DNA of 64,000 bases from Actinopolyspora lacussalsi subsp. righensis (GTDB lineage Bacteria; Actinomycetota; Actinomycetes; Mycobacteriales; Pseudonocardiaceae), in contig NZ_FPAT01000005.1 of NCBI RefSeq assembly GCF_900116555.1, forward strand, positions 62,001 through 126,000. Direction: 5' to 3'. Shown here piece by piece: positions 1,997 to 13,953 of this stretch. The translations under genes were made by a program, and so were the position numbers. Positions within the stretch are counted from its first letter, which is position 1; each line of letters opens with the position of its first letter. The notes beneath the pieces are model-generated. The model had not been told where the DNA came from. It saw nothing but the letters and a program-made list of their open reading frames with translations, and did no database searches.

Positions 1997-3550
1997 ATGA
2001 GTGATGAGGCGACCGCTTTCGACTACGTCGTCGTGGGTGGCGGCAGCGGAGGAGCCGCGCTCGCCGCACGACTGTCGGAGGACCCGGACATCACGGTGTG
2101 CCTGCTGGAGGCCGGCCCCACCGACCAGGACAAACGCGAGGTCCTGGAACTGAAGCAGTGGATGTCGCTGTTGGAGTCGGGCTTCGACTGGGACTACCCG
2201 ATCGAGCCGCAGGAAAGCGGAAACTCCTTCATGCGGCACGCGCGTGCGAAGGTGCTCGGCGGCTGCTCCTCGCACAATTCCTGCATCGCCTTCTGGGCTC
2301 CGGCGGAGGACCTCGACGAGTGGGAGTCGATGGGAGCCACGGGCTGGGGCGCCTCGGACGTCTTCCCGCTCTACCGCAGGCTGGAGAACAACGAGTCGCC
2401 CTCGGAACACCACGGTCACCAGGGCCCGGTCCGCTTGCGCAACGTTCCACCGAACGACCCCTGCGGCAGTGCGCTGCTGCGTGCCTGTGAAGAGACCGGT
2501 ATCCCGATCACGGAGTTCAATTCCGGCCGGACGGTCACCCACGGTGCCAACTGGTTCCAGATCAACGCCCACGAGGACGGCACCAGGGCTTCCTCCTCGG
2601 TGTCGTACCTGCACCCGATCATGGGCAACCGTCCGAACCTGCACGTACGCACCGACGCCAGGGTCAAGCGGGTGGTCTTCGACGGGAACCGGGCCACGGG
2701 AGTGGAGTGCCTGGCGGCCGACGGCATCCGGACCGAACGGGTGACGGCGCGGCGGGAGGTGGTGCTCAGCTCGGGCGCCATCGACACCCCGAAGCTGCTG
2801 ATGCTGTCCGGTATCGGTCCCGCCGAGCACCTCCGTTCGGTCGGGGTGGACGTGCTGGTCGATTCCCCCGGCGTGGGGTCGAACCTGCAGGACCACCCGG
2901 AAGGGGTGATCGGCTGGGACGCGGCCAAACCGATGGTGCAGGACTCCACCCAGTGGTGGGAGATCGGCATCTTCACGACCACCGAGGCCGGTCTCGATCG
3001 CCCCGATCTGATGTTCCACTTCGGTTCGGTGCCGTTCGACATGCACACCGTGCGGCAGGGGTACCCGAGCACGGAGAACGGGTTCTGCCTGACCCCGAAC
3101 GTCACGCGGAGCCGTTCGGTGGGAACGGTGCGCCTGCGCAGCAGGGATTTCCGGGACAAACCCGCCGTGGATCCGCGCTACTTCACCGACCCGCACGACA
3201 TCAGGGTGATGACCCACGGCATCAAACTGGCACGTGAGATCGTGAGCCGGCCCGCGATGCGCGAGTGGGCCGGAGCCGAACTGCATCCCGGACCGGATGT
3301 GGTCTCCGACGACGAGATCGCCGATTATCTGCGTGCCACGCACAACACGGTGTACCACCCGGCTGCCTCGGTTCCGATGGGCAACGGCGAGAACGCGCCG
3401 CTGGACGCCAGGCTGCGTGTGAAGGGAGTGCACGGTTTACGGGTGGCCGACGCCTCGGCGATGCCGTTCCTCGTGGCGGTGAATCCGAATATCACCACGA
3501 TGGCGATCGGTGAAAAATGTTCCGACATGCTGAAGGAGGACGCCGCCTGA
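1997..3550 (+). CDS. codA: Choline oxidase-type GMC flavoprotein
   Basis: This 517-aa glucose-methanol-choline oxidoreductase has the N-terminal FAD-binding VVVGGGSGG loop. It resembles Arthrobacter choline oxidase more than Escherichia BetA. It keeps the GGCSSHNSCIAFW block with the histidine (H93) that covalently links FAD, the serine two residues later (S95), the glutamate of QDHPEG (E302) that binds the trimethylammonium group, the catalytic histidine of VYHP (H454) and the asparagine of VNPNIT (N498). It is therefore predicted to oxidise choline with oxygen to betaine aldehyde and on to betaine. The ATG has a GGAG box about 8 nt upstream. It follows the betaine-aldehyde dehydrogenase and ends at a strong bidirectional terminator. 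Having both enzymes is redundant if the oxidase performs both steps. Confidence 0.88.
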   Translation: MSDEATAFDYVVVGGGSGGAALAARLSEDPDITVCLLEAGPTDQDKREVLELKQWMSLLESGFDWDYPIEPQESGNSFMRHARAKVLGGCSSHNSCIAFWAPAEDLDEWESMGATGWGASDVFPLYRRLENNESPSEHHGHQGPVRLRNVPPNDPCGSALLRACEETGIPITEFNSGRTVTHGANWFQINAHEDGTRASSSVSYLHPIMGNRPNLHVRTDARVKRVVFDGNRATGVECLAADGIRTERVTARREVVLSSGAIDTPKLLMLSGIGPAEHLRSVGVDVLVDSPGVGSNLQDHPEGVIGWDAAKPMVQDSTQWWEIGIFTTTEAGLDRPDLMFHFGSVPFDMHTVRQGYPSTENGFCLTPNVTRSRSVGTVRLRSRDFRDKPAVDPRYFTDPHDIRVMTHGIKLAREIVSRPAMREWAGAELHPGPDVVSDDEIADYLRATHNTVYHPAASVPMGNGENAPLDARLRVKGVHGLRVADASAMPFLVAVNPNITTMAIGEKCSDMLKEDAA

Positions 3551-3618: not shown

Positions 3619-4260
3619 TCAGCTGACGCTGGTGGTGGTCAGCACGGGATTGGGCGAGGGATAGCAACTCGTCGGAACATCGATACTTCCGAGAATTGAG
3701 GAAACCTGCGCGTTGAACGTCAGACCCGGATCGTCGTAGGCGGTGCCGTAGAGGTGGGTCTCGATCGGACCGGAGCTACCCGCCTGCAGCGTGGCGGTCA
3801 CGGTGGGCAGCTCGAACTCGGCCCCGCCGGCGATCGGACCGGACACGTGCAGCGTGGCGATTCCGTTGCTCACGTCGATCGTGGGCGCCGGAGTGCCGAG
3901 GTTGGAGCCACCGGTCTGCGAGGTCGAGACGTGGGTGGTGTTCTCGGGCACCGGCAGCTTGAGATCCAAGCCGTCGATCTGCTCCACGCCGAAACCGTTC
4001 ACCTCGGAGGGCACGGTGTTGACGGCCGGGTCGATGACGATGTCGAACTGCTCACCGGGTGCGACGCTCGCCGGGGCGGTCACCTCCGAGTCCTGCTGGT
4101 AGCTGAACTGCTGCTCCCCGAGCGGAGAATCCCCCGAGCACTCGAAGTTGTGCGAGAAACTCTCCGCGGCTGCGGGCTGGGCAAGAGCGATCACGGGGGC
4201 GACGGCGAAAGCGGCCGCCGCCAATAAGCGCGTCCCGCCCGAACGAATGGAAGATGCCAT
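3619..4260 (-). CDS. Secreted protein of unknown function
   Basis: The predicted 213-aa precursor starts with a classical Sec signal peptide: Arg-containing n-region, Ala-rich hydrophobic core and an AAA|ES cleavage site near residue 32. The mature part is acidic, rich in Ser, Thr, Pro and Val, and has two cysteines near its ends (FECSGD and TSCYP) that may form one disulfide. The alternating hydrophobic pattern suggests a beta-sandwich. The ATG at 4260 is chosen because AGAGGTGAG lies about 6 nt upstream; an in-frame ATG 14 codons earlier has no such site. No catalytic motif is recognised. It resembles the small secreted beta proteins common in actinobacteria, but I cannot name the family. 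It ends only 3 nt from the shared terminator T-tract. Confidence 0.8.
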   Translation of the reverse strand: MASSIRSGGTRLLAAAAFAVAPVIALAQPAAAESFSHNFECSGDSPLGEQQFSYQQDSEVTAPASVAPGEQFDIVIDPAVNTVPSEVNGFGVEQIDGLDLKLPVPENTTHVSTSQTGGSNLGTPAPTIDVSNGIATLHVSGPIAGGAEFELPTVTATLQAGSSGPIETHLYGTAYDDPGLTFNAQVSSILGSIDVPTSCYPSPNPVLTTTSVS

Positions 4261-4636
4261 TGGTCTCACCTCTGAAACGATTGTCCGAAACGTGGATTCC
4301 ACATGGAATGCCGCGCGGCAACCAAAATATCTACCGACCAGTAGGGCTTTCCGTCAATAACGGCGAACAACCCCCGGGAAAACGAGACGAAAAAATAGAT
4401 ACGAGTCGTAATTCAATTGACTGGATAATTTCACTGAAACACAGCAGTAACCGGCCGAGCGGAGTCACACCTTTGGCGCAGTATCGCTACGCGCAGTTCA
4501 CGTGATCCGCCAAACGAGGGATCTTCGTTTTTCGCCCGTTCGCGTGTGAGCCAGGTTACTGAAAAGACTGGCAATGTAACGCTCCGCAGTCAGCGCCAGG
4601 CCACCGCGCGAAACGAGCGGAACTCGGACCCTGGTC
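4261..4636. other. Intergenic region, AT-rich for this genome
   Basis: This 376-bp divergent intergenic region is distinctly AT-rich between 4310 and 4500. It should contain the promoter of the secreted protein on the minus strand. The sequence ACCGACCAGTAGGG at 4333-4346 matches the TetR-type palindrome seen elsewhere in the window at 12 of 14 positions. No convincing reading frame or RNA is visible. Confidence 0.5.
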
Positions 4637-4660
4637 AGCATACCGGCTAGTCGGTATGCT
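4637..4660. promoter_or_regulatory. TetR-type operator upstream of the HAD/APH/ACAD operon
   Basis: AGCATACCG-N6-CGGTATGCT is a perfect 9-bp inverted repeat ending 7 nt before the ATG at 4668. Its core ACCGGCTAGTCGGT resembles the palindromes at 9571, 10318 and 13857. Its position over the likely promoter or transcript start suggests repression by the TetR protein encoded at 9644-10276. Confidence 0.65.
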
Positions 4661-4667
4661 CCGCACC

Positions 4668-5330
4668 ATGCGGACCGAACCCGCCATAACCACCGTGGTG
4701 TTCGACTACGGGGGCGTACTCACCACACCGGGCCGAACGGCCGTCGAGTCCTGGGCACGTGCCGAGGGTATCCGATCCGAGAGTTTCTCCGCAGTCCTTC
4801 GGGAATGGGTCGGCCGTAACGCACCGGACGACACCCCGATCCATCTCCTCGAGACCGGCGAGCTCTCCCTCGCGGAGTTCGACGGGATGCTCGCCGAACG
4901 ACTGCTTCGCGTGGACGGGCGACGGGTCGTGGCCGAAGGACTGCTCGCCAGGCTGTTCTCGTTCATGGAACCGGACGAGGAGATGATGCGACTGGTCACG
5001 GCACTTCGTGATTCGGGAACCCGGACGGGGTTGCTGTCCAACAGCTGGGGCAACAGCTATCCGTGGCAACGGTTGGGACCGCTGTTCGACCAAGCGATCG
5101 TCTCCGGCGAGGTCGGCCTGCGCAAACCGGACCCCCGGATCTATCACCTGGCGCTACGGCGACTGGACACGCCACCGGAACGCACGCTGTTCGTCGACGA
5201 CGTGCGAGCCAACATCGCCGCCGCCGAGGAAATCGGCATGCACACGATCCTGCACCAGGACGCGAAGCGCACCCGGACCCGTCTCACCGAACTCATCCCA
5301 GACCTCGACGCACCCGACCCGCAGGAGTAA
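4668..5330 (+). CDS. HAD-superfamily hydrolase-like protein (ACAD10 HAD-domain type)
   Basis: This 220-aa protein has the HAD motifs in order: VVFDYGGVL (nucleophile D13), LLSNSW, RKPDPRIY and FVDDVRAN. The second aspartate of the usual DxD pair is glycine (G15), as in the HAD domains of epoxide hydrolase N-termini and ACAD10-like proteins, so classical phosphatase activity is doubtful. It is the first gene of an operon: its stop is 2 nt before the next start. The ATG at 4668 is preferred to one at 4656, which lies inside the operator palindrome. HAD, APH and acyl-CoA dehydrogenase modules are fused in this order in vertebrate ACAD10, so a role in 4-hydroxyacyl-CoA processing is inferred. Confidence 0.85.
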   Translation: MRTEPAITTVVFDYGGVLTTPGRTAVESWARAEGIRSESFSAVLREWVGRNAPDDTPIHLLETGELSLAEFDGMLAERLLRVDGRRVVAEGLLARLFSFMEPDEEMMRLVTALRDSGTRTGLLSNSWGNSYPWQRLGPLFDQAIVSGEVGLRKPDPRIYHLALRRLDTPPERTLFVDDVRANIAAAEEIGMHTILHQDAKRTRTRLTELIPDLDAPDPQE

Positions 5331-5332
5331 CC

Positions 5333-6373
5333 ATGTCCGACGAGACCGCGACGTCCCAGCCTCCGGGACTGGACCTCGGCGCGCTCCGTTCCTACCTGGA
5401 GCGCGATCACCCCGGCTTGATCGACGGCGAGCTGCACGGCGAGTTGATCCAGGGCGGAAGATCCAACCTCACCTACGCGATCGGCGACGGGAAGAACAGC
5501 TGGGTACTACGGCGCCCCCCGCTCGGTCACGTACTGGCCACCGCGCACGACATGAGCCGCGAATACCGGGTGATGAGCGCACTGGCCGGAACCGACGTGC
5601 CGGTCCCCGGCACGTATCTGCTCTGCGAGGACGAACAGGTCATCGGTGCGCCGTTCTTCATCATGGACCTGGTGTCGGGCCAGGCGTGTCGCAGCGAGGA
5701 GCAGACCCGGGCACTGAGTTCCGGGCAGCGCCGTGACCTGGCGATGCACCTGGTCGAGGTACTGGCGCGGCTACACGCCGTGGCCCCGGAGTCGGTCGGA
5801 CTCGGCGACTTCGGCAAACCCGAGGGGTTCCTGCGGCGTCAGGTTCGCCGCTGGAGCAAACAGCTGGATGCCTCGCAACAGCGGGAGCTGCGCGGGGTCA
5901 CCGAGCTTCGGGACCGGCTGGCCGCACGCGTACCCACGGGTGGGCCAACGGCGATCGTGCACGGTGACTACCGGCTGGACAACGTGCTGATCGACGAGGA
6001 CTGCGCCATTCGGGCGGTGCTCGACTGGGAGATGGCCACGCTCGGTGATCCACTCACCGACCTCGGGCTGCTGGTCGTGTACTGGGAGGGTTTCAACGGC
6101 ATCGCGGACAACCCCATCGCCAAGGGCGTGGGTCCGGAGTTCGGTTTTCCCTCCGCGCGCGAGATGCTGCGGCACTACGCCGAACTCAGCAGCGTCGATA
6201 CTTCCGAACTGGACTGGTACGTGGCTTTCGGCTTTTTCAAGATCGCGGTGATCCTGGAGGGAATCCACTACCGCTTCACGCAGCGTCAGACCGTCGGCGA
6301 GGGATTCGAGCACGTCGGCGCGCTGGTCGAACCGTTGATCGAGCAAGGATTGACCAACATTTCGGAGAAATGA
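5333..6373 (+). CDS. APH-family phosphotransferase, probable hydroxyacyl-CoA kinase
   Basis: The 346-aa protein belongs to the aminoglycoside phosphotransferase-like kinase fold. It has the catalytic loop HGDYRLDNVL (H210, D212, N217) and the metal-binding aspartate of VLDWEMATLGDP (D231). The N-terminal LIQGGRSNLTY segment corresponds to the nucleotide-binding loop. The ATG has a GCAGGAG ribosome site overlapping the end of the HAD gene. In this subfamily (ACAD10/11 kinase domain, LvaA of Pseudomonas levulinate catabolism) the substrate is a 4-hydroxyacyl group, not an antibiotic. Direct coupling to an acyl-CoA dehydrogenase gene, with adjacent stop and start codons, supports that reading over resistance. 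The exact acyl chain is unknown. Confidence 0.88.
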   Translation: MSDETATSQPPGLDLGALRSYLERDHPGLIDGELHGELIQGGRSNLTYAIGDGKNSWVLRRPPLGHVLATAHDMSREYRVMSALAGTDVPVPGTYLLCEDEQVIGAPFFIMDLVSGQACRSEEQTRALSSGQRRDLAMHLVEVLARLHAVAPESVGLGDFGKPEGFLRRQVRRWSKQLDASQQRELRGVTELRDRLAARVPTGGPTAIVHGDYRLDNVLIDEDCAIRAVLDWEMATLGDPLTDLGLLVVYWEGFNGIADNPIAKGVGPEFGFPSAREMLRHYAELSSVDTSELDWYVAFGFFKIAVILEGIHYRFTQRQTVGEGFEHVGALVEPLIEQGLTNISEK

Positions 6374-7582
6374 ATGGATTTCACTTTTGATGAGCGCACC
6401 GAGAACCTGCGCTCGGAGATCAATTCCTTCATGGAAACCCACGTCCATCCCGCGGAGGAGGAATTCGAGCGGCAGGTGAGCGACGCGGCCGATCCCTGGT
6501 CGGTCCCCCAGGTGGTCGAGGATCTCAAGCAGGAGGCACGTCGGCGTGGACTGTGGAACCTGTTCCTGCCCGGCGATCACGGCGCGGGACTGACGAATCT
6601 GCAGTACGCGCCGCTCGCCGAGATCACCGGACGCAGTCCGCACCTGGCACCGCCCGCGATGAACTGCGCGGCCCCCGACACGGGCAACATGGAAGTACTT
6701 GACATGTTCGGTGACCAGCGACAGCAAGAGCGGTGGTTGGGGCCGTTGCTGCGTGGCGAGATCCGCTCGGCGTTCTGCATGACCGAGCCGGACGTCGCCT
6801 CCTCGGACGCGAACAACATCGCCACCCGGATTCGTCGGGAAGGCGACGAGTACGTCATCACGGGACGCAAGTGGTGGTCGTCCGGAGCGATGAACCCGAA
6901 CTGTCGGGTGCTGATCGTCATGGGCAAGACCGACCCGACCGCCGAACGGCACCGGCAGCAGAGCATGATCCTGGTTCCGGTGGACACACCCGGTGTCACG
7001 ATCCGGCGGGGTATGCACGTGTTCGGTTACACCGACGGTGATCACGGGGGACACGCCGAGATCGACTTCGACGAGGTCCGGGTTCCCGCCACGAACATCA
7101 TCTCCGGCGAGGGCGAGGGATTCGCCATCGCGCAGGCCCGGTTGGGTCCCGGCCGTATCCACCACTGCATGCGTGCCATCGGTATGGCCGAACGCGCGCT
7201 GGAACTGATGTGCCGTCGGGTCACGCACCGGGAGGCGTTCGGACGCCCGCTGGGTGATCAGGGCGTGGTGCAGCACTGGATCGCCGAGGCACGGGTACGG
7301 ATCGAATCGGTTCGCCTGCTGGTGCTGAAAACGGCCTGGCTGATGGACACGGTCGGCAACCGCGGCGCGCACACCGAGATCCAGGCGATAAAGGTGGCGG
7401 TACCGGAGATGGCCACCACCGTGATCGATCGTGCCATTCAGGCGCACGGCGGTGCGGGAGTCAGCCAGGACACCCCACTGGCCAATCTGTACGCGCACGC
7501 CAGAACGCTGCACCTGGTCGACGGACCCGACGAGGTACACCGCCGTTCGCTGGCGCGCCGGGAACTCAAGCAGTACCGGTGA
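6374..7582 (+). CDS. Acyl-CoA dehydrogenase, ACAD10/11-like
   Basis: This 402-aa flavoprotein has the acyl-CoA dehydrogenase core: the FCMTEPDVASSD FAD/substrate loop, a middle beta domain and a C-terminal helical domain with FGRPLGDQ. The position of the usual catalytic EGT loop reads DGPDEVH, the signature of the ACAD10/11 and related FadE group. The gene starts at the base after the kinase stop (TGA ATG) with GGAGA as its ribosome site, so the two are translationally coupled. By analogy with ACAD10/11, it may act on the phosphorylated 4-hydroxyacyl-CoA made by the kinase and release phosphate while forming an enoyl-CoA. A simple saturated acyl-CoA substrate is the alternative. Confidence 0.88.
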   Translation: MDFTFDERTENLRSEINSFMETHVHPAEEEFERQVSDAADPWSVPQVVEDLKQEARRRGLWNLFLPGDHGAGLTNLQYAPLAEITGRSPHLAPPAMNCAAPDTGNMEVLDMFGDQRQQERWLGPLLRGEIRSAFCMTEPDVASSDANNIATRIRREGDEYVITGRKWWSSGAMNPNCRVLIVMGKTDPTAERHRQQSMILVPVDTPGVTIRRGMHVFGYTDGDHGGHAEIDFDEVRVPATNIISGEGEGFAIAQARLGPGRIHHCMRAIGMAERALELMCRRVTHREAFGRPLGDQGVVQHWIAEARVRIESVRLLVLKTAWLMDTVGNRGAHTEIQAIKVAVPEMATTVIDRAIQAHGGAGVSQDTPLANLYAHARTLHLVDGPDEVHRRSLARRELKQYR

Positions 7583-7742
7583 CGCCGGAAAACCCTCGAA
7601 CCCCGCCCAAAACCAGACGGGTTCGGCTGGGAGCGGGCTCGGCCCCACGGGATTCGGCACTACGGGGTTCGACCGCTGGAAGCCGAGACACACCGCGCCC
7701 CACGACGAGAACGACAACGCAGAACGATCAGGAGGCAGCACC

Positions 7743-8195
7743 ATGACCGTGTTCAGTAGCGCCGATGAACTGCACGCAGCCAGCGGCACCGATCTGGGCA
7801 GCAGCAGTTGGTGGACGGTCACCCAGGACATGATCGACCGGTTCGCGGAGGCCACCGGCGATCACCAGTGGATCCACGTCGATCCCGAGCGGGCCGCCGC
7901 CGGGCCGTTCGGCACCACGATCGCGCACGGATTTCTCACGCTGAGCATGGTCAGCGCACTCAACGCCGAGATCTACGGCGTGCGAGGCGCGAGCATGGTC
8001 ATCAACTACGGGCTGAACAAGGTCCGCTTCCCGAGTCCGGTGACGGTGAACAGCCGCGTGCGCGCGAGCTCACGGCTCGCCGACGTGTCCGAGGCGGGCG
8101 AGGCATCGCAGCTGACGCTGCACACCACGGTGGAGATCGACGGTACGGACAAGCCGGCCTGTGTCGCCGAGGTCCTCTCGCGAGTGATGTTCTGA
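7743..8195 (+). CDS. MaoC-like enoyl-CoA hydratase
   Basis: This 150-aa single hot-dog protein belongs to the MaoC/R-specific hydratase group. It shows the hydratase pattern FAEATGDHQWIHVD, with the catalytic Asp and His, followed by a GTTIAHGF segment. It would hydrate a 2-enoyl-CoA to a hydroxyacyl-CoA, which fits a position after an acyl-CoA dehydrogenase. The ATG has a strong AGGAGG site 7 nt upstream. A 160-bp gap separates it from the dehydrogenase; no terminator is evident there, so read-through is likely. The gene ends at a large hairpin. Confidence 0.85.
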   Translation: MTVFSSADELHAASGTDLGSSSWWTVTQDMIDRFAEATGDHQWIHVDPERAAAGPFGTTIAHGFLTLSMVSALNAEIYGVRGASMVINYGLNKVRFPSPVTVNSRVRASSRLADVSEAGEASQLTLHTTVEIDGTDKPACVAEVLSRVMF

Positions 8196-8208
8196 CGTCG
8201 GTTCCGAT

Positions 8209-8261
8209 ACCACCGCGGCCCGACCACTCGACCGATGAGGACGAGTGATCGGGCCGCGGTG
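8209..8261. terminator. Bidirectional hairpin terminator
   Basis: A perfect 14-bp repeat (CCACCGCGGCCCGA and its complement) encloses a loop that contains a second small stem (CACTCG/CGAGTG). It lies between the convergent hydratase and quinone oxidoreductase genes. There is no U-tract, as is usual in high-GC actinobacteria. Confidence 0.7.
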
Positions 8262-8368
8262 GACGGCTCACGACAGGCCGATCACGGCCGAAAGGTTCGG
8301 TACCGAGCGGCGGGGCTCGGCAGCACCGTTCCGACCCTGATCAACCGGCGTACTTCCGGACGGTGCGG

Positions 8369-9355
8369 TTACGAGTTCACGTAAACCACCCGCCCGACGG
8401 TGTGACCGTCGGCGACGCGTTGCGTGGCCTCGGCCAGCTCCGACAGCCCGACCCGCTGACTGACCAGTGGGGACAGCCTGCCCTCGTCGGCCATTCGGCA
8501 GAGGTCCTCGTGGGCCTCGCGGACGGCCGCCGGGTCGCGCTCGTTGTAGAGTCCCCAGTGCAATCCGACGATCGAATAGTTCTTGATCAACGCGTGGTTC
8601 AGCCCGGGACTCGGGATCTTCCCACTCGCGAAACCGATGATCAGAATCCGTCCTTCGAAGGCGACGCACTTGGTGGACCGCTCGTAGGTTTCCCCGCCGA
8701 CCGGGTCGTAGATCACGTCGGCCCCCCGACCGCCGGTCTTCTCCTTGACCACCCCCACGAAGTCCTCGCTGTGTCGATCGATCACCACATCGGCACCGAG
8801 TTCGCGGGCCACCTCGGCCTTTTCCGGTCCGCCCACGACACCGATCACGGTGGCACCGGCCGCCTTGCCGAGCTGCACCGCCGCACTGCCCACTCCACCG
8901 GAGGCCGCGTGGACGAGTAGCGTCTCGCCCTCCCGCAGGGCGCCCCGCCGGTGCAACCCGAACCAGCCGGTCTGATACCCGATGAACAGCGAAGCGGCCT
9001 CGGCATCGGACAGCGCGGCCGGAGCGGGGAAGGTACGGGCGGCGTCCATGAGAGCGTACTCCGCGAATCCCCCGACGGGTACGGCACCGCCCCCGATGAC
9101 CCGTTCGCCGGTGGTGAAACCGCCGACTCCGGATCCGAGCTCGACGATCTCACCGCAGAGCTCCACTCCGGGAGTGAAGGGCGTTTCCGGTTTGACCTGG
9201 TACTGACCCCGACACATCAACGCGTCGGGGAAATTGACCGGAGAGGCCGCCACTCGAACCAGAACCTGATCAGGGCCGGGTCGCGGTAACGGGGACTCGA
9301 CGAGTTCGAGCACATCCCTCGGCTCGCCCAGTTCCGAAACTCTGAGTGTCTGCAC
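8369..9355 (-). CDS. Zinc-independent quinone oxidoreductase / NADPH-dependent MDR reductase
   Basis: The 328-aa protein is a medium-chain dehydrogenase/reductase of the quinone oxidoreductase type. It has an N-terminal GroES-like domain (FTPGVELCGEIVELG) and a Rossmann domain with HAASGGVGSAAVQLG for NADPH. The zinc-ligand cysteine cluster of alcohol dehydrogenases is absent. The start is GTG, with GGAGGTG upstream. Related proteins reduce enoyl groups or quinones, so it may reduce an enoyl-CoA or enal in this pathway. A 288-bp upstream region carries a TetR-type palindrome, which argues that it belongs to the same regulon. Confidence 0.85.
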   Translation of the reverse strand: MQTLRVSELGEPRDVLELVESPLPRPGPDQVLVRVAASPVNFPDALMCRGQYQVKPETPFTPGVELCGEIVELGSGVGGFTTGERVIGGGAVPVGGFAEYALMDAARTFPAPAALSDAEAASLFIGYQTGWFGLHRRGALREGETLLVHAASGGVGSAAVQLGKAAGATVIGVVGGPEKAEVARELGADVVIDRHSEDFVGVVKEKTGGRGADVIYDPVGGETYERSTKCVAFEGRILIIGFASGKIPSPGLNHALIKNYSIVGLHWGLYNERDPAAVREAHEDLCRMADEGRLSPLVSQRVGLSELAEATQRVADGHTVGRVVYVNS

Positions 9356-9570
9356 TGGTCACCTCCAACATTCTTCCCACGACCGCCGCGGCCGCGGGAG
9401 TGATCCGAACTCCGGGAGTTCATGACAGAACCTGCTCGCCGGCTCGGGACTCGTTCGGCCGCTCGGGTTCCGTCCCGGCCGCCTCTCCGTGCCGAATCAC
9501 CGCTGTCCCCACCCGCTCTGTAACCGAACAACGAACCGGTGGACGACGGTGCCGAACCGACAAGCATCGC

Positions 9571-9584
9571 ACCGACCGGTCGGT
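9571..9584. promoter_or_regulatory. TetR-type operator upstream of the quinone oxidoreductase
   Basis: ACCGACCGGTCGGT is a perfect 14-bp palindrome, identical to the one at 10318. It lies about 215 bp upstream of the oxidoreductase start and 60 bp downstream of the TetR stop. Confidence 0.7.
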
Positions 9585-9643
9585 ACGCCACCGACTCAGC
9601 ACCTCACGCTGCGGAGCGACCGACACGGCGTTCCTCGCGGTTC

Positions 9644-10276
9644 TCAGGCACGCAACGCGTCCAACAGCAGGTCCGCGAACTGATCACCCACCTGCTCCCC
9701 GCTCATCGGCCCGTCCCTGCGGTACCAGCTGCCGAGGTGATGGACGGCGCCGAAGAAGAAGTCGACCACGAGCTCGGGGGAACGGTCCGCGCGGAACACT
9801 CCGGCTCGTTGTCCCTCCTCGATCAACTGCTTCACTCGTTCGTGATAGCGCCGACGCTGGGCACGCACCTCGGCCTGTTTGTCGGAATGCAGCAGGTGCA
9901 TGGAGCGGAAGAAGATTACGGTGTCCTCCAGATAGGCGACCGTGGTCACCACGACGTCCGCGGCCACTGCCCGGAGTCGCCGCTCGACGGACTCCGAACT
10001 GTCCGCCGCCTGTTCCATCCGCGACATCTGCACACGCAGCACTCGCGCGTAGATCTCGTAGAGCAGGTCGTCCTTGGAGCCGAAGTAGTGGTACATGGCT
10101 CCCTTGGTCACTCCGGCCGCGTCCACGATCTGTTGCACCGAGGTCGTCTCGAATCCCTGCTCGGCGAACAGTCGTGTGGCCGCGCTCAGCAGCCGCTGCG
10201 GCACCGGCTCCTGCCCGCTGTGTCGCGTCCGCTCGACGGTCTCTCCGCCTCCCTCGGTGAACGAGCTCGGTGCCAT
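9644..10276 (-). CDS. TetR-family transcriptional regulator
   Basis: This 210-aa regulator has an N-terminal TetR helix-turn-helix (AATRLFAEQGFETTSVQQIVDAAGV then GAMYHYFGSKDDLLYEI, quoted in two parts) and a longer alpha-helical ligand domain ending with WYRRDGPMSGEQVGDQF. The size and C-terminal pattern resemble the FadR/KstR2 type that sense acyl-CoA thioesters; this is an inference. The ATG at 10276 is chosen for its AGGGAGGAAG site; an in-frame GTG lies 11 codons upstream. A perfect copy of the 14-bp palindrome lies 42 nt before the start, indicating autoregulation. It sits inside the acyl-CoA locus and is the natural candidate to control it. Confidence 0.88.
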   Translation of the reverse strand: MAPSSFTEGGGETVERTRHSGQEPVPQRLLSAATRLFAEQGFETTSVQQIVDAAGVTKGAMYHYFGSKDDLLYEIYARVLRVQMSRMEQAADSSESVERRLRAVAADVVVTTVAYLEDTVIFFRSMHLLHSDKQAEVRAQRRRYHERVKQLIEEGQRAGVFRADRSPELVVDFFFGAVHHLGSWYRRDGPMSGEQVGDQFADLLLDALRA

Positions 10277-10317
10277 CGCTTCCTCCCTGACTACTGCCGC
10301 TGGGTACACAACAGGGT

Positions 10318-10331
10318 ACCGACCGGTCGGT
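10318..10331. promoter_or_regulatory. TetR-type operator upstream of the TetR gene
   Basis: This is a perfect ACCGACCGGTCGGT palindrome preceded by T and followed by CC. It is 42 nt upstream of the chosen TetR ATG on the opposite strand, consistent with autorepression. Confidence 0.72.
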
Positions 10332-10487
10332 CCCCGTACGCGTCCGTCGACGGGCCCGTCGTCGAGGGCGCGCGCCGAGCCGACTCCCGTAACTCGACCC
10401 TGGTCGTCGGCCGGCCGTGCGCCACCACCAGGTCGGCGGTCCCGTTCCCGAAACCTGCCGGTAGTTCCCGAAACGGAGCGGCCGATC

Positions 10488-11258
10488 TCAGTCGGCCCGT
10501 TCGATCTGCCTGCGCAGCGAGCGCATCCCGGACAACCAACGATCCGGGTCCGTCGCGCGCTGGACGTAATGTCCGGCCACCTCGGGATGCGGCAGGATCA
10601 GGAACTCGCCACCCAGCGAATCCGCGACGACCTCGGCGACCTTCGTGGGCTCCACGGCATCGGCGTCGAGCAGCCGCCGTCCCGTCTCACCGCTCTCGGC
10701 GAGCATTCCGGTCCGCACGCCCTGCGGGCACAGTGCCTGCACCGTGATACCTCGATCGGCGTAGGTCACCGACAGCCATTCGGCGAATCCCAGTGAAGCG
10801 TGCTTGGTCACCGAGTACGGCGCGGCTCCGAGCATGGTGAGCAGCCCGGCGGCCGAGACCGTCGCCAGGAAGTGACCGCCGCCCGCCTCCAGCCAGTGCG
10901 GCAGCACCGCCCGCGCCGCGCGCACGTGCGACATGACATTGATCTGCCACGCCCTGTCCCAGTCCTCCTCGGGGGTTTCCGGACCCCCCGCGGTGGCGAC
11001 ACCGGCGTTGGCGCAGAACAGATCGATGCCGCCGTGACGCTCCAACGCGGTGTCGACGAGTTCGCGCGCCCCGGACTCACTGGCCGCGTCACCGACCACG
11101 GCCGTACCGCCGACCTCCTCGGCTACTTCCCGTGCCGCCGCACCATCGATGTCGTTGACGACCACACTCGCACCCCGCGAAGCGAACTCACGACTCATCG
11201 AGGCACCTATACCGTTGCCCGCGCCGGTGATCACGGCCACGGAACCGGCCAACCGCAT
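10488..11258 (-). CDS. Short-chain dehydrogenase/reductase
   Basis: The 256-aa protein is a classical SDR with the nucleotide motif ITGAGNGIG, an NAG motif (CANAGVA) and the catalytic YSVTK. The ND after the second strand (VVVNDIDG) suggests NAD preference. It carries a longer C-terminal segment with many Arg residues. It would oxidise or reduce a hydroxyacyl-CoA or related alcohol in the pathway encoded around it. The gene lies between the TetR gene and a second SDR on the same strand, 136 bp downstream of the latter. Confidence 0.85.
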   Translation of the reverse strand: MRLAGSVAVITGAGNGIGASMSREFASRGASVVVNDIDGAAAREVAEEVGGTAVVGDAASESGARELVDTALERHGGIDLFCANAGVATAGGPETPEEDWDRAWQINVMSHVRAARAVLPHWLEAGGGHFLATVSAAGLLTMLGAAPYSVTKHASLGFAEWLSVTYADRGITVQALCPQGVRTGMLAESGETGRRLLDADAVEPTKVAEVVADSLGGEFLILPHPEVAGHYVQRATDPDRWLSGMRSLRRQIERAD

Positions 11259-11394
11259 GCCGACCTCCTGTCCCCGTCGTTGCGAAACTGACTGTCGATC
11301 CGACGAACCCGCTCCGGGCGAGGCTCGCGACGCGGTGACGAACCGCTCCGCGCGGGTACCGCGAGCCCCACCCGCTCCTACCGGCCGAAGGTGC

Positions 11395-12150
11395 TCACAT
11401 CCCTCCGGTGAGCGATACCCCGCCGTCCAGGGTCAGGATCTGGCCCGTCACCCAGGACGCCTCGTCGGAAAGCAGGTAGGCGGCGGCCCCGGAGATATCG
11501 GAGGGCACCCCCAGCCTGCGCATCGGGTACTGCTCGGCGACCTCTGCCTCGTTGTCCTGATACAGCGCGGTGGCGAACTGCGTCTTGACCACGGCGGGGG
11601 CGACCGCGTTGACACGCACGTCCGGACCGAGCTCCACGGCCAGCTCACGAGTGATGTGGCTCAGCATCGCCTTGGTCGCGCCGTAGTAGCCGATGCCGGG
11701 AGCCGGATTCGATCCGGCCAGCGAGGTGACGTTGAGTACCGCACCGCCGTTGGCGGACATCCACTCCCGGTGGACCAACTGGGTCCAGGCCAACGAAGCC
11801 AGTACGTTGACCTCGAAGGTCTTGCGTGCGACTTCGTGATCGAGTTCGATCAGCGGGCCGTAAGCGGGGTTGATACCGGTGTTGTTGACCAGCATGTCGA
11901 CACGGCCGAAAGTGCGCAGGGTGCGGTCGACCGCCTCGGACTGGTGCTCGCTGTCGTCGGCCTTGCCCGCCACCGCGATCGCGTGTTCCGCACCGCCAAG
12001 TTCCTCGACGGCCTCCTGCAGAGCATCGGGTTTACGCGCCGTGATGCACACCCGGGCGCCCTCGGACACCAGGCGCTGTGCGATGCCGAAACCTATTCCC
12101 CTGCTCGCACCGGTGACGATCGCCACCCGACCGTCGAACCGCTTGCTCAT
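11395..12150 (-). CDS. Short-chain dehydrogenase/reductase (FabG-like)
   Basis: This 251-aa SDR has VTGASRGIG for cofactor binding, the NNTG motif, the active-site YYGATKA and the C-terminal LTLDGG typical of FabG and LvaD-like enzymes. The basic residues in TARKP after the second strand point to NADP(H). It starts 26 nt after the stop of the acyl-CoA synthetase gene, so both belong to one minus-strand operon. A 3- or 4-hydroxyacyl dehydrogenase role is likely from context. Confidence 0.86.
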   Translation of the reverse strand: MSKRFDGRVAIVTGASRGIGFGIAQRLVSEGARVCITARKPDALQEAVEELGGAEHAIAVAGKADDSEHQSEAVDRTLRTFGRVDMLVNNTGINPAYGPLIELDHEVARKTFEVNVLASLAWTQLVHREWMSANGGAVLNVTSLAGSNPAPGIGYYGATKAMLSHITRELAVELGPDVRVNAVAPAVVKTQFATALYQDNEAEVAEQYPMRRLGVPSDISGAAAYLLSDEASWVTGQILTLDGGVSLTGGM

Positions 12151-12176
12151 ACGTTTCCTCTCCTAGTAGTTGTCGA

Positions 12177-13841
12177 TCAACCGCGCGCTTCGTCCCGAAG
12201 CCGCCGTCGAAGGATCTTGCCGGTGGTCGTCTTCGGCAACTCCTCGACCAGCTCCACCTCTCGTGGATACTTGTACGCCGCCAACCGCTGTCGGCAGTGA
12301 TCGGCGAGCTCCTCCCCGGTGGTGCTCGTACCGGGCACCAGGCTGACGTAGGCCTTGACCGTCTCGCCCCGGTACTCGTCCGGAACTCCCACCACCGCCG
12401 CTTCCCGAACGGCGGAGTGCGAGTAGAGGACGTCCTCCACCTCGCGGGGCCAGACCTTGAAACCGGAAGCGTTGATCATGTCCTTCTTCCGGTCGACAAC
12501 GTAGAACCAGCCCTGTTCGTCCATGAAGCCGACGTCACCGGTGTGCAGCCTGCCCTCCGGGATCGACTCCTCGGTCTGTTCCGGCTGGTTCCAGTAGGAG
12601 GGCACGACCATCGGCCCCTCCACGACGATCTCGCCGACCGACCTCACGGGCAGGTCCACCCCGTCGTCGTCCACCACGCGCAGCACGCAGTTGAACGTGG
12701 GGATACCGACGCTGATCGTGCCGGTCTCCTCGTCGACCGGAGCCTCCAGGTGCGGCGGCACGGAGGTCGCCGTGGCCGTGGTCTCGGTTAGCCCGTAGCC
12801 GTTGCGGATGTAGAGCCCGAAATCGGACCGGAACCGTTCGACCATCGCGGCCGGCAGCGGCGCCCCACCCGCGTACACCTGTTCGAACGAGCGAAAATCG
12901 TCGGCGGTGGCTTCGGGATGATTCATCAAAGCGATGTAGGCCGTGGCAGGACCGATCATGTACCGCGGTCGCCACCGGCGCAGCGCCGCCAGTACCGCCG
13001 ACGGTTCGAACCGGTACACGAGGTCGAGCCGTCCTCCCAGGGCCAGCGTGGCGCCGAACTGGCACACGAGACCGGTGATGTGGAACAGCGGAGCCAACGC
13101 GATCATGCCGCTGCCGTCGTGGCTACCCGTGCGCTGCGTGAACGCCTGGGCGTTGAAACTGAGGTTGCGATGGGTGTTGGTCGCACCTTTGGGAGCACCG
13201 CTCGTTCCTGACGTGTAAGTCAGCAGTGCGATGTCGTCCGGATAGAGTCGAACGCTCGGAGGCGTGGCCGTCCGGCGTGCGGTCGCCGTTGCCACGAGAT
13301 CCGCGGTATCCGCGGGCCGACGACGCTCCAACCCCCGCAACGGAGTCCCCTCGTGCTCGGCGGCCAGATCCAGCTCGCTGGTGGTCAGTGTCACCGTCGC
13401 TCCGGTGGAGGCGGCCACTTCGCACAGCACGTCGTGCCAACCGTTCTCGGAGGAGATCACGGCGGCGGGTTGGGCGTCCGCCAGGACGGTGGTCAGTTCG
13501 TGGGAGCGGTACATGGGATTGAGCGGGACGACGATGCCGCCCAACTTCCACCCGGCGAGCACGGCGATCGCGAACTGCGGAACGTTCTGCAGGTACACCG
13601 CGACGCGGTCACCCCCGCCGACTCCCTGCTCGGCGAGGTACTCGGCCACCCCGTTGGCGAACTCGTCCAGCTCACGATAAGTGATCTCGGTACCGAAGTA
13701 CGTAAGGGCGACGCGGTCGGGAAACCGCGAACGGGTGTCCGTCAGCACGGACAGCATGTCCTCGTACGGTGGGGCGATGTCCGCAGGCTCGTCCGCGGCA
13801 TAGCGCTCCAGCCAGGGACGTTGATCATAGACACCGGACAT
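12177..13841 (-). CDS. Acyl-CoA synthetase (AMP-forming, ANL superfamily)
   Basis: The 554-aa enzyme belongs to the adenylate-forming family. It has the P-loop-like LTYTSGTSGAPKGA, the GYGLTETT adenine-binding motif, the hinge TGDVGFMDEQGWFYVVDRKK and the C-terminal catalytic lysine in PKTTTGKILRR. It should activate a carboxylic acid with ATP and CoA and so feed the surrounding acyl-CoA enzymes. The ATG at 13841 follows GGAGG by 6 nt; the GTG two codons earlier overlaps that site. An operator palindrome lies 16 nt upstream of the start. It occupies the position of LvaE in the levulinate operons, although the substrate here cannot be read from sequence. Confidence 0.9.
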   Translation of the reverse strand: MSGVYDQRPWLERYAADEPADIAPPYEDMLSVLTDTRSRFPDRVALTYFGTEITYRELDEFANGVAEYLAEQGVGGGDRVAVYLQNVPQFAIAVLAGWKLGGIVVPLNPMYRSHELTTVLADAQPAAVISSENGWHDVLCEVAASTGATVTLTTSELDLAAEHEGTPLRGLERRRPADTADLVATATARRTATPPSVRLYPDDIALLTYTSGTSGAPKGATNTHRNLSFNAQAFTQRTGSHDGSGMIALAPLFHITGLVCQFGATLALGGRLDLVYRFEPSAVLAALRRWRPRYMIGPATAYIALMNHPEATADDFRSFEQVYAGGAPLPAAMVERFRSDFGLYIRNGYGLTETTATATSVPPHLEAPVDEETGTISVGIPTFNCVLRVVDDDGVDLPVRSVGEIVVEGPMVVPSYWNQPEQTEESIPEGRLHTGDVGFMDEQGWFYVVDRKKDMINASGFKVWPREVEDVLYSHSAVREAAVVGVPDEYRGETVKAYVSLVPGTSTTGEELADHCRQRLAAYKYPREVELVEELPKTTTGKILRRRLRDEARG

Positions 13842-13856
13842 GAACACCTCCGCAAG

Positions 13857-13870
13857 ACCGACCAGTCGGT
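13857..13870. promoter_or_regulatory. TetR-type operator upstream of the acyl-CoA synthetase operon
   Basis: ACCGAC-CA-GTCGGT is a perfect 6-bp inverted repeat. It differs from the sites at 9571 and 10318 at one central base and lies 16 nt before the synthetase start, a typical repressor location. Confidence 0.7.
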
Positions 13871-13953
13871 ACGTCCAGTAGACTGATTACGACGGTCCAC
13901 GTCAACCCACCTCCGGAACACGGCGAAAAACCGACCACGTCTTGACGAGATCC

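Follow-up and report, generated by a model that had tools for sequence, protein, structure and literature searches.

In Actinopolyspora lacussalsi subsp. righensis three adjacent genes encode a HAD-fold protein, an APH-fold kinase and an acyl-CoA dehydrogenase (ACAD), an arrangement that repeats the fold order of ACAD10 of mammals, where the three form one polypeptide instead of three open reading frames (ORFs). This locus raises the question whether it represents an unfused bacterial counterpart of ACAD10, as a first-pass annotation of the DNA had claimed, and which role a HAD protein plays beside such a kinase. The window analyzed is a stretch of 64,000 nucleotides (contig NZ_FPAT01000005.1, positions 62,001 to 126,000 of the forward strand; position 1 of the coordinates used here is its first letter). 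All nine genes of the first-pass annotation are real and correctly placed, Pfam being in agreement for 9/9, and the gene coordinates bear out the tandem of HAD, APH and ACAD with a gap of 2 nt between the first two and of 0 nt between the last two, where TGA is directly followed by ATG. Our reading, to which we assign a probability of about 0.6, is that a TetR-regulated module would feed 4-oxo and 4-hydroxy acids into beta-oxidation, with the HAD as a repeatedly recruited, kinase-coupled partner which may keep the phospho-intermediate low.

Kinase and Dehydrogenase Are of the ACAD10/11 Kind

Animals employ kinases and dehydrogenases of the ACAD10/11 kind to channel 4-hydroxy fatty acids into fatty acid oxidation. 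The firmest conclusion, as judged from the sequence, is the assignment of the dehydrogenase to the ACAD10/11-LvaC subgroup. Compared with solved structures it reached 487 bits with ACAD11 and 448 bits with 4hr3, whereas the best ACAD outside the subgroup reached 152 bits. Its residues R256, H264, R267 and D383 align with R626, H634, R637 and D753 of mouse ACAD11 (the chain numbers are one lower), which have been described to serve phospho-substrate recognition and catalysis, with D753 as catalytic residue (PMC12440821). R256, H264 and R267 were each kept in 110/110 rows and D383 in 109/110 (one gap), near-copies being included in these rows. In the source genome 11 other matches were found; none of the five paralogues tested carried the full set of four residues, and one had 1/4. 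The DGPDEVH motif, named in the first-pass annotation as the signature of this subgroup, comprises residues 383–389.

The kinase is likewise of the ACAD10/11 kind, to judge from its APH fold, the Asp of its HGD motif and its nearest relatives. Similarities of 164–209 bits were obtained with 9o56, 3dxp and two ACAD11 chains (ACAD11 168 bits), followed by the “aminoglycoside phosphotransferase-like” 9fsg with 54 bits, 3ats with 34 bits and macrolide and viomycin kinases with 25 bits. The catalytic residues H210, D212, N217 and D231 were invariant in 109/109 rows. An antibiotic kinase was thus rejected, given 168 bits to ACAD11 and 25 to the macrolide and viomycin kinases; a best match to aminoglycoside or macrolide kinases, which would have told against the earlier proposal, did not occur. 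For ACAD10/11 kinases a requirement for the CoA thioester has been described (PMC12440821).

A Predicted Route for 4-Oxo and 4-Hydroxy Acids

A route for 4-oxo and 4-hydroxy acids into beta-oxidation is well supported, in contrast to its substrate. The synthetase would activate the acid to the acyl-CoA, one SDR would reduce the 4-oxoacyl-CoA to the 4-hydroxyacyl-CoA, the APH kinase would convert the latter into the 4-phosphoacyl-CoA and the ACAD would eliminate the phosphate to yield the 2-enoyl-CoA. Hydration to the 3-hydroxyacyl-CoA would be performed by MaoC and oxidation to the 3-oxoacyl-CoA by the second SDR, while the quinone/enone oxidoreductase (QOR), together with a reductase elsewhere in the genome that has the same operator, would reduce enones. 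The roles of kinase and dehydrogenase are predicted from residues conserved with assayed homologues; those of synthetase, SDR, MaoC and QOR are suggested by family and context. In this respect the earlier proposal holds, as the remaining genes could perform each step from the acid to the 3-oxoacyl-CoA; levulinate as the specific substrate, which that proposal had also implied, is unsupported. The extra step which the HAD and MaoC had been thought to add is not needed: MaoC would carry out a common hydration, and the HAD makes better sense beside the kinase, as its partner, than as one of the enzymes of the route.

The P. putida lva operon (LvaA/B kinase, LvaC, LvaD, LvaE), compared by its description, shares the kinase, ACAD, SDR and synthetase families and a route through a 4-phosphoacyl-CoA (PMC6692424). 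Instead of the HAD it has the small LvaB, described beside the lva kinase (PMC6692424), and instead of TetR the sigma54-dependent LvaR, and the window adds MaoC, QOR and a second SDR. No LvaB gene adjoins the window kinase, as the gaps on either side leave no room for it, and according to PMC12440821 the lva operon contains nothing resembling the HAD.

On a Tsukamurella plasmid the genes form a single run of thiolase-SDR-SDR-QOR-HAD-FabG-MaoC-APH-ACAD. This operon, which adds a thiolase, a synthetase and a phosphotriesterase-family gene, supports one putative route that starts with an acid or a lactone. The latter gene and, from one Deinococcus locus, a gene resembling gluconolactonase speak for the view that the compound degraded by the module is cyclic or branched, i.e., a gamma-lactone or steroid fragment, with levulinate or 4-hydroxy fatty acids being incidental, and QOR and the enone reductase would suit unsaturated ketones. 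We regard this as unlikely: the module genes in the window include no such hydrolase, and for kinase and ACAD to perform their reactions just a 4-hydroxyacyl-CoA is required. The phosphotriesterase-family and gluconolactonase-like genes of these related operons (L175:10544-11527 and L176:4575-5663) nevertheless hint at lactone substrates.

Conservation of the HAD-Kinase-ACAD Neighborhood

Besides the source genome 60 relatives were searched for the kinase, and the best-match locus was taken from all 54 with a match. These loci comprise a set of 40 and a set of 14, in which the flanks were about 3 kb each, less at contig ends. A HAD was located near the kinase in 21/54 (21/40 and 0/14). It lay directly upstream in 20/21 and overlapped the kinase gene by 4 nt in 10/21; two genes are inserted in L068, and the starts in L053, L073 and L076 are uncertain. 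Sampling by the HAD itself covered the best 80 of at least 573 confirmed relatives in named genomes, some of the loci being short at contig ends (in L164 the kinase is cut). In this set a kinase within 5 kb was present in 60/80, an ACAD within 6 kb in 62/80 and both in 58/80. The neighborhood recurs in other orders of Actinomycetes, and its conservation in relatives, whose absence would have told against the earlier proposal, is confirmed. On the kinase tree the HAD label required 5 changes compared with 22.9 after shuffling (109 rows), a figure inflated by near-copies and HAD-sampled rows, many of which are among the 109. The recurrence across loci and the clustering of the label led us to reject a neighborhood by chance.

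DUF6912 genes accompany a sister clade of the HAD (L129, L142, L144, L155–L159, L238, L239); its loci sometimes include a divergent ACAD of the ACAD10/11 type, without a kinase in the vicinity.

Active Site and Family of the HAD Protein

Motif I of the window HAD is DYG and therefore departs from the DxD of HAD phosphatases. The nucleophile, Ser/Thr, Lys and acidic pair are nevertheless present (D17, S128, K157, D181, D182), and the AlphaFold model has a mean predicted local distance difference test score of 91.8. DxG was found in 113/114 HAD loci (one row gapped), with or without a nearby kinase; D17, K157, D181, D182 and N186 were kept in 113/114, and position 128 is occupied by Ser or Thr in 113. 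DxG is also common to Escherichia coli YihX, which is annotated as a phosphatase. Two candidate explanations were discarded: a decayed pseudogene, given that the catalytic set is kept, and a loss of the second Asp owing to the kinase, given that DxG is family-wide. The HAD of A. alba (L085) is 98% identical to that of the window.

The HAD-IA fold is shared with the TIGR02247 HADs, the N-domain of soluble epoxide hydrolase and YihX, and DxG occurs in YihX and in strict TIGR02247 rows. Unlike members of TIGR02247, to which the HAD of ACAD10 is presumably assigned, the window HAD scored 106.4 bits, below the cut-off of 125.4. Ten strict TIGR02247 loci had no kinase within their 1.5-kb flanks. A strict TIGR02247 HAD query against plasmids gave no match at 1e-20 and, at 1e-8, weak, mixed HADs alone.

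A Second Kinase Clade with a Histidine Phosphatase

A new point of this work is a second clade of kinases, coupled to a histidine phosphatase unrelated to the HAD. In the levulinate cluster of P. citronellolis, known to us by its description, a histidine phosphatase adjoins the LvaA homologue, and no LvaB is reported there (PMC6692424). This cluster resembles the window in the phosphatase-fold gene next to the kinase and differs in the superfamily, histidine phosphatases being unrelated to HADs. Among annotated records we found the same partner by the kinase in Deinococcus NW-56 (with one gene between), D. deserti, D. taeanensis, D. radiodurans and Azospirillum, and none in D. aetherius, D. 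psychrotolerans, Methylobacterium, Cytobacillus, Sphingopyxis, Bosea, Haematobacter and Sphingobium.

A similarity scan of 99 kinase loci, a set that leaves out the five plasmid loci in which no kinase was matched (L179, L181, L247, L251, L253), yielded 24 with a HAD, 13 with a histidine phosphatase, 62 with neither and 0 with both. For the 65 loci with a subgroup ACAD within 4 kb the respective numbers are 23, 10 and 32 with neither. Sampling outside the actinomycetes consisted of plasmids hand-picked from the hit list and is biased; actinomycetes account for 8/13 histidine phosphatase loci. The histidine phosphatase starts −10 to +4 nt from the kinase stop in 12/13. Adjacency by chance is unlikely, because seven whole genomes contained only 7–16 matches to the family each.

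All 13 kinase-coupled histidine phosphatases (L057, L059, L176, L245, L248, L255, L256, L267–L271, L273), including those of Deinococcus, Azospirillum and actinomycetes, carry Ser instead of the second His, which we take to be a catalytic residue. His was found in 10/10 controls, picked among 74 family matches and mostly the best-scoring. In the midpoint-rooted kinase tree the histidine phosphatase clade contains 13 kinases with the partner and 3 without a partner, the HAD clade 24 and 15, respectively.

Role of the Phosphatase-Fold Partners

The HAD of ACAD10, which also keeps only the first Asp of DxD and is linked to a kinase, has been described as having negligible phosphatase activity on 4-phosphohydroxyhexanoyl-CoA while restraining the kinase (PMC11342911). 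The HAD of the module would hold the phospho-intermediate low. It may do so as a brake that senses the product, in the way reported for ACAD10, or by slow phosphatase action. We favor a limitation of the phospho-intermediate, in either of these forms; a sensor or brake is supported by two unrelated folds with unusual active sites being found at one and the same position. Partners of this type would have been recruited repeatedly: actinomycetes would have gained a HAD, animal ACAD10 a HAD domain and a different kinase clade a histidine phosphatase with Ser for His.

The HAD might instead be a true phosphatase which clears dead-end 4-phospho acids or 4-phosphoacyl-CoA, i.e., a metabolite repair enzyme or safety valve and not a regulator. 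Its conserved catalytic residues, the DxG of YihX, the free 4-phosphohydroxyhexanoate measured in cells (PMC11342911) and the occupation of the same position by a second phosphatase superfamily would fit such an enzyme. The negligible activity of ACAD10's HAD on the CoA ester speaks against it, and the Ser of the histidine phosphatase partners would be odd for two working phosphatases, so that we consider a true phosphatase rather unlikely.

Several observations weigh against a kinase-coupled HAD that limits the phospho-intermediate. In at least seven loci the HAD has an ACAD and no kinase in its vicinity (L129, L142, L144, L156, L240, L241, L243; the genomes of the last three have a kinase elsewhere), and exceptions without a nearby kinase include Streptomyces, Nocardioides and Nocardiopsis loci and the DUF6912-linked clade. 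Among 18 genomes with a HAD and no kinase close to it, or none found, 15 encode a kinase as well as an ACAD and three, all in the DUF6912-linked clade, have neither kinase (E ≤ 1e-15) nor ACAD (E ≤ 1e-80); L114, L119 and L122 were left out of this check and L146 out of the HAD tree. A restriction of the HAD to kinase-bearing genomes or loci was thus rejected. DxG is, by its distribution, no sign of lost catalysis, because it is family-wide and present in YihX. The finding that both partners never occur together is largely explained by the kinase clade. Neither partner was found in 62/99 loci, and the partner is therefore dispensable; the histidine phosphatase queries came from loci already known, and more distant partners would be missed. 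Among these 62 kinases 30 are without a subgroup ACAD nearby and may do something else. Finally, ACAD10 is in no tree, mouse ACAD11 being its stand-in and the sole animal kinase.

As a generalization, 4-hydroxyacyl-CoA kinases across life would be equipped with a dedicated brake of phosphatase fold and altered catalysis that arose on three or more occasions, from two superfamilies without relation to each other: a HAD in actinomycetes, a HAD in animal ACAD10 and the Ser-for-His histidine phosphatase in a kinase clade of Deinococcus, Azospirillum and actinomycetes. This extension is tentative, and we lean slightly toward doubting it.

Relation to ACAD10

The window ACAD has the residue set of ACAD10, which is shared with ACAD11; the latter likewise combines kinase and ACAD with the same four residues, and differs in being fused and in having no HAD. 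“Unfused ACAD10” probably holds by analogy, with the same folds and order, and not by descent. A gene fusion in which a bacterial HAD-APH-ACAD operon gave rise to the HAD, kinase and dehydrogenase of animal ACAD10 would explain the common order, the 487 bits between the ACADs and the second Asp missing in both HADs (for ACAD10: PMC11342911). In the kinase trees, which were quick, midpoint-rooted and flagged for uneven composition, the mouse ACAD11 kinase grouped with 3dxp and six partnerless alphaproteobacterial kinases (L177, L180, L184, L249, L250, L254) with a Shimodaira-Hasegawa-like approximate likelihood ratio test value of 100. A starred split (95) separated it from the HAD-linked kinases, and the stand-in is thus not in the HAD-linked clade. 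A HAD was present in 0/15 non-actinobacterial plasmid loci and in 0/3 further ones, and the window HAD is below the TIGR02247 cut-off. Descent by fusion is very improbable on this evidence. Convergence of the HAD-APH-ACAD order appears more likely than inheritance, because the mouse ACAD11 kinase falls outside the HAD-linked clade, together with HAD-less alphaproteobacterial kinases. In the literature searched, no title or abstract opening among the matches listed describes a bacterial HAD beside such genes.

Operators and Genes of the Locus

The claim of a TetR-controlled locus is supported, because four palindromic 16-mers close to TACCGACYRGTCGGTA lie within the module and precede the HAD, QOR, tetR and synthetase genes (Table 1). 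At one mismatch or less 8 sites were counted in the source genome as opposed to 0 for the reversed control pattern; all 10 Actinopolyspora genomes have 6–8 sites each (one mismatch allowed), the reversed pattern giving 0–1. The operators are putative, and we infer that the module is controlled by its own TetR. The operator before tetR suggests autoregulation. The best named model for the TetR is ScbR, with a score far under the ScbR cut-off. An operator was located just 5′ of the kinase in four of five HAD-less loci scanned from other genera (L060, L066, L071, L077); the fifth, L065, had none.

Outside the module an operator precedes a curcumin/leukotriene-B4-dehydrogenase-type reductase, which scores under the cut-offs of both models, in 6/10 Actinopolyspora genomes, a count from loci selected for holding the site, the relevant sites of the four other genomes not being among those compared. 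This reductase may act on enones and belong to the regulon of the module. One such operator-like site is at L195:3020-3035. A genus-wide operator-like palindrome (L197:3080-3095) falls within the 3′ end of the gene for a second acyl-CoA synthetase, with an SDR-ACAD pair following, and could be explained by coding conservation.

The start of the HAD gene may be 4668 instead of 4656, because the ATG at 4656 overlaps the operator at 4641–4656 and the ORFs called in L045 and L050 begin at the residue matching Met5 of the window HAD; L052 starts like the window. The hairpin between the MaoC and QOR genes (−57.4 kcal/mol, z −8.1; segment 8196–8275 folded) is a possible bidirectional terminator.

Just upstream of the module are genes for an aldehyde dehydrogenase (123–1760) and a choline-dehydrogenase-like GMC oxidoreductase (1997–3550). 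The module is accompanied by the GMC gene in 8/8 same-genus loci, and this region of the window has no operator scoring 11 or more. A divergent gene (3619–4302) encodes a secreted-looking product of 227 amino acids which matched neither Pfam at 1e-5 nor NCBIfam at 1e-20. It is preceded by a weaker operator-like site, TACCGACCAGTAGGGC (4332–4347), and some other loci of the genus have a degenerate site in a similar position.

Table 1. Predicted genes and sites of the module in the window.
Feature	Position	Strand	Basis and remarks
TetR-type operator TACCGGCTAGTCGGTA	4641..4656		Palindrome scan; upstream of/overlapping HAD start
HAD-IA phosphatase-fold protein, motif I DYG	4656..5330	+	Pfam, NCBIfam comparison; start possibly at 4668
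Kinase of APH fold and ACAD10/11 type; HGD with catalytic D212	5333..6373	+	Pfam, similarity, alignment, tree
Acyl-CoA dehydrogenase, ACAD10/11-LvaC subgroup; R256, H264, R267, D383	6374..7582	+	Similarity, alignment
MaoC-type enoyl-CoA hydratase	7743..8195	+	Pfam; Shine-Dalgarno-like AGGAGG upstream
Strong hairpin between convergent MaoC and QOR genes	8210..8262		Folding energy
Quinone/enone oxidoreductase (QOR), PIG3-like	8369..9355	-	Pfam; 244 bits, under PIG3-like model cut-off 297
TetR-type operator	9570..9585		Palindrome scan; upstream of QOR
TetR family regulator (TetR_C_24)	9644..10276	-	Pfam
TetR-type operator	10317..10332		Palindrome scan; upstream of tetR
SDR oxidoreductase 1 (SDR1)	10488..11258	-	Pfam
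SDR oxidoreductase 2 (SDR2)	11395..12150	-	Pfam
Acyl-CoA synthetase (AMP-binding)	12177..13847	-	Pfam
TetR-type operator	13856..13871		Palindrome scan; upstream of synthetase-SDR2-SDR1 run

Implications

The role of the HAD domain of ACAD10 is described as open, the kinase being restrained and phosphatase activity negligible (PMC11342911). As a separate conserved gene the bacterial HAD can be added, removed and mutated freely, and its effect on the kinase is testable in trans; with the unrelated histidine phosphatase partner this idea could be tested a second time, independently. Should both partners be brakes or valves, the common problem would be a harmful or CoA-trapping phospho-intermediate. 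If true, this would bear on the catabolism of 4-hydroxy acids and lipid peroxides in animals and, for bacteria, on levulinate engineering.

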